From: Planktothricoides sp. SR001
GTDB taxonomy: Bacteria > Cyanobacteriota > Cyanobacteriia > Cyanobacteriales > Laspinemataceae
Direction: 5' to 3'
Assembly: GCF_001276715.1 (NCBI RefSeq)
Contig: NZ_LIUQ01000021.1
Coordinates: 21,218-85,217 of the forward strand
DNA length: 64,000 nucleotides
The translations under genes were made by a program, and so were the position numbers. The notes under the pieces were generated by a model, which saw nothing but the letters and a program-made list of their open reading frames with translations, did not search any database and was not told the origin of the DNA. Below, piece after piece: positions 1 to 6,945 of the stretch (position 1 is the first letter of the stretch; the number at the start of each line of letters is the position of its first letter).

Positions 1-126
1 TTCTCTATTCTCTTTTCTCTATTCTCTTTTCTCTCTTCCCCACACACCCCACACTTCGATGGCGGCTTCCCACACACCCCACACCCTACACCGATGGCGG
101 CCCCACACCCCAGGGTCTGGGTCAGC
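1..126. repeat. Low-complexity and short-repeat DNA
   Basis: Bases 1-40 are a pyrimidine-rich tandem of ttctctattctcttt-like units. This is followed by repeated cacaccccaca and gatggcggc words, the same short words found around 32.25-32.52 kb. It lies downstream of the minus-strand glyoxalase II gene. No coding signal is seen. It is probably short tandem repeat DNA of the kind common between cyanobacterial genes. Confidence 0.6.
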
Positions 127-927
127 TTAAAAAATATCTTTGCGACCCCGCAGACGGGCAAAGGTTTGTACTGGGTCTTGGCTGTCTACCGCTGACTGTA
201 ATGCCGGTTGATCCCAGCGCAAGAAAGGATTGGTGCGTTTTTCCAGCCCCAGAATTGATGGGACGGTGGGTTGAGATAGCGATCGCGCGGTTTTCACTTC
301 AGCAAAGCGCTGTTGTAAATCTGGGTTATCCCCATCGACGGTTATGGCAAATTGCAGATTACCGAGGGTGTACTCATGGGCACACCAAACTTGCGTCGAG
401 TCCGGTAAATTGCGTAGTTTGCTCAGGGAGTTGACCATTTGTGCGGGGGTGCCTTCAAATAATCGGCCACAACCTCCAGCAAATAAGGTATCTCCACAGA
501 ATAAATGGCCGGTGTCTTCGACCGCATTGGGCGGAAAATAGTAGGCAATGTGACCGCGAGTATGTCCGGGAACAAAGAACACTTGACCTGTGCGATTCCG
601 CGAAGCGGATCCCTTGCGGGAATCGCCAAATTCCACGGTATCGCCTTCCTCAAGAAAGACTTGCTGACCAGGAATTCGTCCCCGATCCTCTGCCCCCCCG
701 TACACGATCAGATTGGGGAAGCGTTCCATCAGCGATCGGTTGCCCCCCACATGATCGCTATGATGATGGGTGTTAAAAATTGCCACCAACTCAGCCCCTA
801 GTTCTTCAAGCTTTTGTAACACCGGGGGAGCCACCGCCGGATCCACCACAGCCGCAATATTTTTCTGAGCGTCGTATATTAAGAAAATATAATTATCAGA
901 CAGCGCCGGAATTCGATAAATTTGCAT
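127..927 (-). CDS. gloB: Hydroxyacylglutathione hydrolase (glyoxalase II)
   Basis: This cytosolic metallo-beta-lactamase-fold enzyme hydrolyses S-lactoylglutathione to lactate and glutathione, the second step of methylglyoxal detoxification. The metal site is visible: [10 protein letters not shown] at residues 53-62 (H54, H56, D58, H59), GHT with H122, CGDTLF with D146, and CAHEYT near residue 184. At 266 aa it is slightly longer than the usual ~255 aa. The excess is at about residues 101-113 ([13 protein letters not shown]), encoded by a stem-loop repeat at 592-627, just before the conserved VFFVPGHT strand. This looks like an in-frame insertion of a palindromic element. The start ATG at 927 gives the canonical [16 protein letters not shown]-terminus. 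It is a single gene with no operon partner in view. Confidence 0.93.
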
Positions 928-1064
928 AGAACCATGCCTCCATGAGCGGAAATTTATTCAGTTAAATTTTAATCTGCTTCCGGGGGACAAAGAAAAATCA
1001 ATCCTCAGTAGTACAATAATGAATACTCACTATCCGGTTAAGACCGATCGCTAGATCATTCCCT

Positions 1065-1274
1065 ATGGTTAGACAAAATCCAATTCCCGTCAGTTCAAAC
1101 ATTCATCAACTGATTACACGAATTGTCGAATCCAATGAAATTGGCAGAAGGGAACAGTTACAACTCACCTCTGCTATGCTAAGGGATAAGAATCTTACCG
1201 AGGAAGATCGCCGACAAATCAATCGGATCTTCGATCATATCCAAAGCGGGCGCATCAAAATTATCGATCTTTAG
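1065..1274 (+). CDS. Conserved small protein of unknown function (69 aa)
   Basis: A short, charged, probably all-helical soluble protein with no signal peptide or membrane segment. The middle (residues 20-60, including RREQLQLTSAM and LTEEDRRQINRIFDHIQSG) resembles a small helical cyanobacterial family whose function I do not know. It lies 61 bp upstream of galE on the same strand and could share its transcript. ATG 1065 follows a weak purine stretch. Its reading frame and composition are plausible, but I cannot assign a role. Confidence 0.6.
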   Translation: MVRQNPIPVSSNIHQLITRIVESNEIGRREQLQLTSAMLRDKNLTEEDRRQINRIFDHIQSGRIKIIDL

Positions 1275-1335
1275 TCGCTCTCTAAGAATTGTTTGGTAAA
1301 TATTAAGCCACTGAAACAATATAAGGAATTTGCAA

Positions 1336-2334
1336 GTGAGTAACAAAAAACAAATGATTTTAGTGACTGGGGGCGCTGGATATATTGGCTCCCATGCAGT
1401 TTTAGCCCTGAAACAAGCCGGTTACGATGTGCTGATTCTTGATAATTTGGTCTACGGTCATCAAGAAATTGTTGAGGAAGTTTTACAGGTGCCATTGGTG
1501 GTCGGGGATACCTGCGATCGCCCTTTGTTAGACCGCATTTTTTCTACCCATGATATTGCCGCTGTGATGCACTTTGCCGCCTATGCTTATGTGGGAGAAT
1601 CTGTCACAGAACCAGCCAAATATTATCATAATAATGTGGTGGGTACTCTCACTCTTTTAGAAGCGATGGTGGCGGCAAACGTGAAGAAATTTGTCTTTTC
1701 TTCTACTTGCGCTACTTATGGCATTCCCCACAGAATTCCTCTCACAGAAGACCATCCCCAAAATCCGATTAATCCCTACGGGGCGACTAAATTAATGGTG
1801 GAAAGAATTCTCCAAGACTTTGACCCAGCTTATGATTTCAAATCCGTAAGTTTTCGCTATTTTAATGCGGCTGGGGCTGACCCAAATGGCCAACTGGGAG
1901 AAGATCACAACCCAGAAACTCATCTCATTCCTTTAGTGTTACAAACTGCTTTGGGCAAACGAGACTCTATTGGAATTTTTGGCACGGATTATGAGACTGC
2001 CGATGGCACTTGTATCCGAGATTATATTCATGTGAATGATTTGGCCAGCGCCCATATTTTAGGTTTAGAGTATCTGATCAATGGAGGAAATACAGACTTT
2101 TTTAACTTAGGCAATGGCGGCGGTTTTTCCGTTAGAGAAGTGATTTTACAAGCAGAAAAAATTACGGGTAAAAAGATTAAAGTGGTAGAGAGCGATCGCC
2201 GTCCGGGAGATCCTCCGGTGCTCGTGGGTAGTAGCGAAAAAGCCAAAACAATCTTAGGATGGTCGCCCCAATACTCAGATTTAAAGGATATTATTGCTCA
2301 TGCTTGGCAATGGCATCAAAAACGTCATGGTTAA
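1336..2334 (+). CDS. galE: UDP-glucose 4-epimerase
   Basis: This short-chain dehydrogenase-type enzyme interconverts UDP-glucose and UDP-galactose with bound NAD, supplying UDP-Gal for surface polysaccharides. The N-terminal Rossmann motif is GGAGYIG, followed by DNLVYGH. The catalytic Ser/Thr segment is FSSTCATYG and the YxxxK pair is in YGATKLMVE. FRYFNAAGAD and RDYIHVNDLA are GalE hallmarks. Length (about 332 aa) is normal. Start choice: an AAGGA at 1323-1327 lies 8 nt before GTG 1336, which I prefer; TTG 1330 is too close to it, and ATG 1354 (MILVTGGAG) is also possible. It heads a same-strand run with two glycosyltransferases and an ABC exporter. Confidence 0.93.
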   Translation: MSNKKQMILVTGGAGYIGSHAVLALKQAGYDVLILDNLVYGHQEIVEEVLQVPLVVGDTCDRPLLDRIFSTHDIAAVMHFAAYAYVGESVTEPAKYYHNNVVGTLTLLEAMVAANVKKFVFSSTCATYGIPHRIPLTEDHPQNPINPYGATKLMVERILQDFDPAYDFKSVSFRYFNAAGADPNGQLGEDHNPETHLIPLVLQTALGKRDSIGIFGTDYETADGTCIRDYIHVNDLASAHILGLEYLINGGNTDFFNLGNGGGFSVREVILQAEKITGKKIKVVESDRRPGDPPVLVGSSEKAKTILGWSPQYSDLKDIIAHAWQWHQKRHG

Positions 2335-4923: not shown

Positions 4924-6945
4924 ATGACTCCATATAAATTTCTCCTAAAATTTGCTCGCAGACAGCCGGTCTGGATTCTCATCACGATTATCCTAGGTTG
5001 GACCGGTGCTTTGTTCAATGGGGTGAGTACAACTCTGATTGTACCATTGTTACTGGGATTTTTAGGACAAGAACTGAAATTTGAACAAGCTCCCCCTTTT
5101 CTGCGCTACACTCTATCCCTATTCGATAACCTCCCGGCTAAGTATCGCCTCCTATATATGATGGGCATCATTCTGCTAGGTATTTTGTTAAAGAATGGTG
5201 CGATCTATGCCAGCACTGTGGCTTCTGCTTATGTGTCCAAACAATTGGTGAGAGATATTCGCCTTGCGGCGATCAAGTTACTATTAGATGTAGACCTGGA
5301 TTTTTACTCTAAAACTAAAATTGGCGATGTGATCAATTCCATTGGCCAAGAAGTGAGCCGTGCAGCGGGTGCCATTCGCTTGGGAATTCAAATGGTGGTT
5401 CATGGCATTACTATTTTAGTATTTATTGCTATTCTGATCTCGATTTCCTGGCAGCTAACATTAGTCGCTCCATTTATTTTAGTTTGGGTGCCTGTTTTGT
5501 CTCAGTTTGTGATTAATAGATCGCAAAAATATGGAGATTTTTTGTCCCAATCATCGAGAGCATTTTCGGGGAAATTTATAGAAATATTAAATGGAATTCG
5601 TCTGGTGAAATCAACTAGCAGTGAAGCTAGAGAATATGACATTATTGTGCAAAGAATTCTGGATCGGGAAGAAGCTGAATTAAAATCCGAGATGAACTAT
5701 GCCCTAACTGCCCCAATTAATGAAATTAGCGCAGTGAGTGCCTTGTTAGCCATGATTGCGATCGGTAGGGTTCTGTTTGCCAATCAGATCGATTCATTGT
5801 CTGCGGTTCTCTTAACTTATTTATTTGTGCTGAATCGGATGATGGTGGTGGTGGGACAATTAAATAGTACCCGTAGCCGATTTGCTAATGCGGTCCCTGG
5901 GGCTGTGATTGTGAGTGAATTTTTGCGCCTTGATGATAAGCCGATCATGCAAAATGGTTATATTCCCTACCAGGGAATTCAAAAAGAAATTCGGTTTGAG
6001 GGCGTCTCTTTTTCTTATCCGAGTAGTTCAGAATTGGTGTTAGATGAGATTAATTTAACGATTCCTCGAGGCACGACTTTGGCTTTAGTGGGGGGATCGG
6101 GGGCAGGAAAATCGACTTTGGCGGATTTAGTGCCCAGATTTTACGATCCAACCGCTGGAAAAATTACCATTGATGGAATTGATTTAAGAGATTATGACTT
6201 TACCACCCTGCGAAAAGCAATGGGGATTGTGAGTCAGGAAACTTTTTTGTTTAATGATTCGGTGCGAAATAATATTAGTTATCCCCGTCCTGATGCCAGT
6301 GAAGCGGAAATTATTCAAGCGGCAAAGCAGGCGAATGCTTATGATTTTATTGTGCAGTTGCCCCAGGGGTTTGATACGGAAATTGGCGATCGCGGGGTGA
6401 TGCTTTCCGGGGGACAACGACAACGCATTGCGATCGCCCGTGCCCTGTTGAGTAATCCGGATATTTTGGTCTTAGATGAAGCCACCAGCGCCCTGGATAC
6501 GGTTTCCGAACATTTAGTCCAACAAGCGATCGAACGGTTAAGCAGCGATCGCACCAGCATCGTCATTGCCCACCGACTCTCCACCGTCCAAAAAGCCGAT
6601 CAAATCGTCGTCCTGGAAAAAGGAAAAATCATCGAAATCGGCACTCATATAGAACTCTTAAAGAAAGGTGGTCGCTATACTCACTTATACTCCCTGCAAT
6701 TTTCCAAAGACTCACAAGAACTGTTGCTAAAACGAGCTCGCAATGAAACTTTAATGAATTCTTCTTATGAAATCCGCACCCGTTTAAACCCGATGATTGG
6801 ATTTCTCCGGTTACTGGTGGACAATGCTGCTGATTCAGCGGAAGAACGGCGGGAATTAACCCAAGAAGCTTATGAATCAGCCATGCGTCTGCTTGGCACT
6901 TTAGAATATCTCGAAAGTAGTGCCAAAGAATCGATTGATCCTTAA
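4924..6945 (+). CDS. ABC exporter (fused TMD-NBD) with C-terminal HisKA-like tail
   Basis: A half-transporter of the MsbA/HlyB/HepA type: about six membrane helices in residues 1-320, then one nucleotide-binding domain. Walker A GGSGAGKST starts near residue 389, the Q-loop is in VSQETFLFND, the signature LSGGQRQRIA is near 497, and Walker B with D-loop ILVLDEATSALD is near 513; the switch is IAHRLS. It probably flips or exports a lipid-linked glycan, given the upstream galE and two glycosyltransferases. Unusually, about 70 extra residues follow the NBD. NSSYEIRTRLNPMIGFLRLL aligns with the HisKA H-box, with Tyr615 in place of the phospho-acceptor His and Arg in place of the usual Pro. ATG 4924 has only a weak AGG 4 nt upstream. 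Confidence 0.9.
   Translation: MTPYKFLLKFARRQPVWILITIILGWTGALFNGVSTTLIVPLLLGFLGQELKFEQAPPFLRYTLSLFDNLPAKYRLLYMMGIILLGILLKNGAIYASTVASAYVSKQLVRDIRLAAIKLLLDVDLDFYSKTKIGDVINSIGQEVSRAAGAIRLGIQMVVHGITILVFIAILISISWQLTLVAPFILVWVPVLSQFVINRSQKYGDFLSQSSRAFSGKFIEILNGIRLVKSTSSEAREYDIIVQRILDREEAELKSEMNYALTAPINEISAVSALLAMIAIGRVLFANQIDSLSAVLLTYLFVLNRMMVVVGQLNSTRSRFANAVPGAVIVSEFLRLDDKPIMQNGYIPYQGIQKEIRFEGVSFSYPSSSELVLDEINLTIPRGTTLALVGGSGAGKSTLADLVPRFYDPTAGKITIDGIDLRDYDFTTLRKAMGIVSQETFLFNDSVRNNISYPRPDASEAEIIQAAKQANAYDFIVQLPQGFDTEIGDRGVMLSGGQRQRIAIARALLSNPDILVLDEATSALDTVSEHLVQQAIERLSSDRTSIVIAHRLSTVQKADQIVVLEKGKIIEIGTHIELLKKGGRYTHLYSLQFSKDSQELLLKRARNETLMNSSYEIRTRLNPMIGFLRLLVDNAADSAEERRELTQEAYESAMRLLGTLEYLESSAKESIDP

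Follow-up and report, generated by a model that had tools for sequence, protein, structure and literature searches.

A 27-nt insert that splits a HIP1 site in frame in gloB of Planktothricoides sp. SR001 is probably a mobile element of the SDR5 kind

In the glyoxalase II gene (gloB) of Planktothricoides sp. SR001, 27 nt have been gained exactly between GCG and ATCGC of the cyanobacterial octamer HIP1 (GCGATCGC). The inserted segment is very probably one of the copies of a tiny mobile element of the SDR5 kind, a likeness drawn from the described features of SDR5 rather than from its published sequence. According to the available text of PMC4390886, SDR5 (Elhai et al. 2008) inserts between nucleotides 3 and 4 of HIP1; HIP1 itself is here the target site of the element, rather than the inserted element. 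The gene lies in the window, that is, the whole 64,000-nt stretch of DNA analysed. A first-pass annotation had described a palindromic repeat at this position in gloB and overlooked both the splitting of HIP1 and the membership of the repeat in a dispersed family.

The gloB open reading frame was matched by TIGR03413 at 314 bits (cut-off 201), and the features of the gene and of its insert are listed in Table 1. The repeat had been described as about 36 bp at 592-627, in frame within gloB; the repeat and its position in the minus-strand frame (127-927) were confirmed, while its extent was corrected to 35 bp at 592-626 (GCGATTCCGCGAAGCGGATCCCTTGCGGGAATCGC). The exact 27-nt gap in orthologues gives a net gain of nine residues (SRKGSASRN) in place of the approximately 12 first proposed, and the insert precedes the conserved VFFVPGHT strand with four residues (RTGQ) intervening, where direct contact had been claimed. 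The insert was also said to spare the metal ligands, and the motifs containing those ligands are indeed unaltered. The addition to HIP1 can be read either as 27 nt following GCG or as 25 nt accompanied by a duplication of AT, and the 27 nt are capable of forming two hairpins.

Table 1. Positions of gloB and of the HIP1-splitting element in the window
Feature	Position	Strand	Basis
gloB, hydroxyacylglutathione hydrolase (glyoxalase II), 266 aa	127..927	-	ORF; TIGR03413 above cut-off; HAGH_C and Lactamase_B domains
35-bp unit: HIP1 octamer GCGATCGC split by the element (GCGAT ... ATCGC)	592..626	-	genome copies compared with reversed control
27-nt net insert, coding SRKGSASRN (aa 103-111)	595..621	-	exact 27-nt gap in 11/14 family orthologues
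HIP1 arm, low-coordinate end, GCGAT on + strand	592..596	-	sequence; empty sites
HIP1 arm, high-coordinate end, ATCGC on + strand	622..626	-	sequence; empty sites
Hairpin B: + strand CCGC GAA GCGG (gloB sense CCGC TTC GCGG), 4 bp, loop of 3	598..608	-	sequence
Hairpin A: + strand CCC TTGC GGG (gloB sense CCC GCAA GGG), 3 bp, variable loop of 4	611..620	-	covariation among copies

Within the window the gloB dyad had no second copy at up to 3 mismatches, and none of 100 shuffles contained its pattern. Folding of this single copy was mildly better than that of shuffled sequences (z of -1.5 and -2.1 for the two strands), which is unremarkable; the case for insertion is made by the further copies and the empty sites rather than by the folding of one dyad. 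An Rfam scan of window positions 1-2000 gave two hits, neither of which lay at the element or reached the gathering score. Just 3' of gloB, window positions 1-110 hold a CT-rich run with repeated CACCCCACAC / CGATGGCGGC units.

The gloB gene was compared across the 14 genomes returned by a search of the family, among them the SR001 genome (G000), a second genome of the same species (G037) and a congener (G152). The insert was present in these three, all of one genus, while exactly 27 nt were missing at the site in the other 11, which belong to 4 other genera. Gaps were also seen where the nine residues sit in the two solved homologues whose alignments were inspected (8ewo and 1xm8). Conservation of the segment in GloB from genomes lacking the repeat, which would have spoken against an insertion, was thus not found. 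An intact GCGATCGC occupies the gloB site in two of the 11 uninserted genomes (G079 and G151, of other genera); the remaining nine have no HIP1 there, which is expected for diverged genera and is not supportive by itself. Since two species of the genus carry it, the gloB insertion is most likely older than the split between them.

Presence and absence at HIP1 sites was also observed between the sister species themselves, from which mobility of the element is inferred. In ksgA the element is present in G000 and G037, while G152 has GCGATCGC with identical displayed neighbouring bases; in glk the arrangement is reversed, with the element in G152 and GCGATCGC in both G000 and G037. L141 offers a third case, in which G037 has the element and G152 reads GCGATCGC, with another small difference nearby; G000 is uninformative there, as the region was only partly matched. 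The single within-species difference looked at is L001, where G000 carries the element. In G037 and G152 this site is empty but reads GCGATCGA, which departs from HIP1 by one base, and it lies in a repetitive stretch with a 51-nt difference, so it is not a clean empty site.

Sixteen copies of the element were found at up to 3 mismatches in the 7.07-Mb G000 genome against none for a reversed-pattern control, which rules out a chance dyad. The 24-nt core, again at up to 3 mismatches, occurred 34 times in G000, 33 times in G037 and 47 times in G152 (17 of the G152 cores being exact), and was absent from G079, G151 and G008, which represent three other genera, and from the reversed control. Of 148 genomes drawn from the order, a draw that G152 fell outside, three matched a pattern made slightly degenerate when up to 2 mismatches were allowed, namely G000 (21 matches), G037 (20) and G096 (one); the remaining 145 had no match. 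The exact core was found in 17 stretches of the genome_contigs collection, all from the metagenome-assembled genome Oscillatoriales cyanobacterium S07.Bin090, although records of the SR001 genome itself were possibly excluded from that search. No exact core was found in viral_contigs and no blastn match at E 0.01 in plasmid and phage collections, so those collections give no sign of a carrier.

With any sequence allowed between GCGATTC and GAATCGC, 60 places were found in G000 and 61 in G037, with no control matches in either. At least one such match occurred in 49 of 146 genomes, the next highest count being 13 (G004); the reversed control gave 1-2 matches in 14 of the 146, so that single matches carry little meaning. 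Of 51 listed places of the element, 50 were retrieved, the other lying on contig C47. A 24-nt relative, GCGATTCGCNNNGCGATCCCNNNGGGAATCGC (32 bp including HIP1), was present in genomes of distant families of the order (G004, G091, G125 and G139) and may be a wider form of SDR5. Two further repeats were observed. At L030, L044, L164 and L170 hairpin B and the right HIP1 arm are kept, and GGGGGCAAGCTTC stands where the left arm and the initial part of hairpin A would be. In the family member G008, all four HIP1-split matches hold another HIP1-like repeat, GCGATTCGCGAATCG.

The stem of hairpin A covaries between copies. For this comparison the right 17 bases served as the sole criterion for choosing 102 copies; that half contains hairpin B, of which these copies are therefore no fair gauge. 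The left HIP1 arm was present with at most one mismatch in 87 of the 102, and among these 87 the middle pair of hairpin A was CG in 59 and GC in 22. Its three stem pairs were formed in 91.6% of cells (n = 87), compared with a mean of 78.9% and a maximum of 83.9% in 2000 shuffles; over all 102 copies the values were 82.0% observed and 71.6% (mean) and 76.5% (maximum) shuffled. The observed pairing was matched by 0 of the 2000 shuffles, a result which is not a probability because the copies are related to one another and hence not independent. The sequence in the loop of hairpin A is variable, being mostly GTAA or GCAA in the main subtype.

Elhai et al. (2008) reportedly described repeats of 21-27 nt with compensatory changes in a shared structure and recent mobility. 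The present element resembles SDR5 in lying inside HIP1 between its third and fourth nucleotides (at the gloB, ksgA, glk and L141 sites; the empty L001 site is one base off), in the length of its 27-nt insert, which falls within this reported range although some other HIP1 splits fall outside it, in the compensatory changes of hairpin A (in copies that are not independent) and in recent mobility, seen as presence and absence at HIP1 sites between sister species. It differs in its host, which belongs to a genus placed in the Oscillatoriales. A separate family of hairpins that target HIP1, unrelated to SDR5 of Nostoc and converged on the same site, would fit the near confinement of the CCC-type 27-nt sequence to one genus (3 of the 148 order genomes, one of them with a single 2-mismatch copy) and the restriction of exact genome_contigs cores to one metagenome-assembled genome. 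This is unlikely, as the insertion point is identical to that reported for SDR5 and HIP1 is also split by double hairpins, some of 24 nt and some of different length, in distant families (for example in G004, G091, G125 and G139), which suggests one broad family.

The enzyme was proposed to work still despite the insert, and this is probably so, since between the two insert-carrying species (G000 and G152) gloB has a dN/dS of 0.13 (dN 0.028, dS 0.207), with 0.18 before the insert and 0.11 after it. The insert likely forms a surface loop, as had also been suggested; an AlphaFold2 model of the inserted GloB, for which two sequences were supplied, had a mean pLDDT of 34 and was uninformative. Retention of the nine residues because they are useful to GloB, which is compatible with a mobile origin, might be suspected from the insert being identical in the two species at a gloB dS of 0.21, and from the wider set of shared elements. 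When the flanks of 41 G000 elements and 44 G152 elements were compared, 11 were found to be shared (12 rows, less the pairing of L010 with L123, a paralogue that pairs better with L043), and unpartnered elements can also reflect a missing contig or a diverged element. The 11 orthologous pairs differ at 8 of 385 sites, compared with approximately 30 predicted from flank divergence, a hint that could point to gene conversion or constraint, although the pairs were found by their likeness to the consensus, which biases the figure towards few differences. Usefulness to GloB is nevertheless a very improbable account, as other frames of the same DNA give other peptides in other genes and 27 nt are too short to reveal selection.

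Presence and absence are symmetrical when taken alone, and the insert could be ancestral and have been precisely lost elsewhere instead of gained. The distribution makes this highly unlikely: the gloB site is empty in 11 genomes of 4 other genera, the ksgA element is absent from G152 and from 5/5 outgroups searched, and the glk element is absent from G000, G037 and 5/5 outgroups searched. Local creation of the palindrome by slippage or repair around HIP1, which is itself palindromic and frequent (74 sites in the window, about 1.2 per kb), can be dismissed given three exact 35-bp copies in different surroundings and the clean 27-nt empty and filled pairs.

Under the favoured reading, insertion of an SDR5-kind element, HIP1 would be cut or nicked, and a two-base AT stagger would give the observed ends. 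The copy may be supplied through an RNA or single-stranded DNA hairpin, with the enzymes for copying presumably encoded elsewhere and acting in trans. Insertions into genes would often be tolerated and survive as nine-residue inserts, since the usual length is divisible by three and the majority of reading frames through the element are open. In gloB the insertion would have taken place before the species split and then have been maintained in a gene under purifying selection.

The element is striking in that a sequence of less than 30 nt stands repeatedly in frame in proteins, as do the palindromic elements of Rickettsia. The available text of PMC10969869 describes the latter as palindromic repeats of about 150 bp that lie in frame within host genes unrelated to one another and encode a conserved peptide; the element described here shares the palindromic, in-frame position within unrelated genes but is 27 nt long, lies in HIP1 and gives peptides that vary by frame. 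REP and REPIN sequences, which are linked to RAYT transposases, are likewise short paired hairpins dispersed through bacterial genomes. REPs are, however, called extragenic in the available text of PMC3116915, in contrast to the open coding frames that hold 43 of 48 examined main-subtype copies here, and by eye the gloB copy has neither GTAG nor CGTC, the tags named in the title of PMC3733652, on either strand. A partial literature search found no paper on in-frame SDR insertions, which Elhai et al. (2008) may themselves report. Through these clean pairs of empty and filled sites, a mobile element of 27 nt is documented within the conserved enzymes GloB, KsgA and glucokinase, whose frames stay open. 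Two questions become testable: which activity cleaves HIP1 and duplicates a hairpin of this size, and with what frequency proteins are changed by inserts of this sort. Annotators also gain an explanation for unusual insertions of nine residues, which recur in six types among the proteins of the genus.

Copies were scored as coding when an open frame of at least 120 codons ran across the element with a codon score above 8; sites shared between the two species count once per species, i.e. twice, in these tallies. By this rule all 18 main-subtype copies examined in G000 were coding, as were 24 of 29 in G152 and the one seen only in G037. Over all subtypes 64 of 87 were coding, with the six combinations of frame and orientation represented 17, 15, 11, 8, 7 and 6 times. 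Pfam matches were obtained for 17 of 20 host proteins scanned, including ksgA, glucokinase, AhpC/TSA proteins, a multicopper oxidase, a methyltransferase, a histidine kinase and a diacylglycerol kinase. A preference of the element for genes was considered and is unsupported, as its coding fraction is near that of HIP1 sites in the window (58/71) and of random 35-mers (1134/1500) under the same rule; the element goes where HIP1 is.

The gloB version contains no stop codon in any of the six frames, and in other genes the DNA of the element is read in other frames to give different peptides. Of 61 distinct 35-mers, 31 were open in all six frames (10 of 26 in the main subtype) and the remainder in four or five. 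Shuffled versions of the gloB inner sequence were open in all six frames in approximately 17% of cases, so this openness is helpful yet not extreme. In G152 the copy at L063 (element at 5211 counted on the minus strand) has the TAA of its GTAA loop in frame, so that the upstream ORF with the best score (286 aa) terminates within the element.

It is conceivable, though doubtful, that a mobile element of less than 30 nt has settled on a form that genes tolerate (divisible by three in length, with four to six of its six frames open, and aimed at mostly genic HIP1 sites). It would thus keep supplying proteins throughout a cyanobacterial genus with insertions of 8 to 10 residues, other lengths being purged from genes. 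HIP1 splits of 24, 25 and 28-32 nt are also present, and GCGATT...AATCGC splits number 90 in G037 compared with 10 for the reversed control. Forty-five of the 50 splits listed (first 3.42 Mb of G037; 90 in all) were examined for length, and frame-breaking lengths appeared rarer in open genes, although the support for this is weak. Under a strict double-hairpin test, coding splits made up 17 of 21 with a length divisible by three and 0 of 2 with another length (Fisher P = 0.059). Relaxing the rule to an inner GC of at least 0.55 gave 19/28 and 2/8 (P = 0.046), and adding five hand-picked odd forms under this looser rule gave 21/30 and 2/11 (P = 0.005), the last being a selected set. The comparison is partly circular, as the coding rule demands an open frame across the element, and L150 (28 nt, not coding) was omitted because its arms differ. 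The two exceptions, L203 and L208, fail the strict double-hairpin test, as do four of the six non-coding ones among the 45, and flank scores indicated no gene on both sides of those six non-coding cases.
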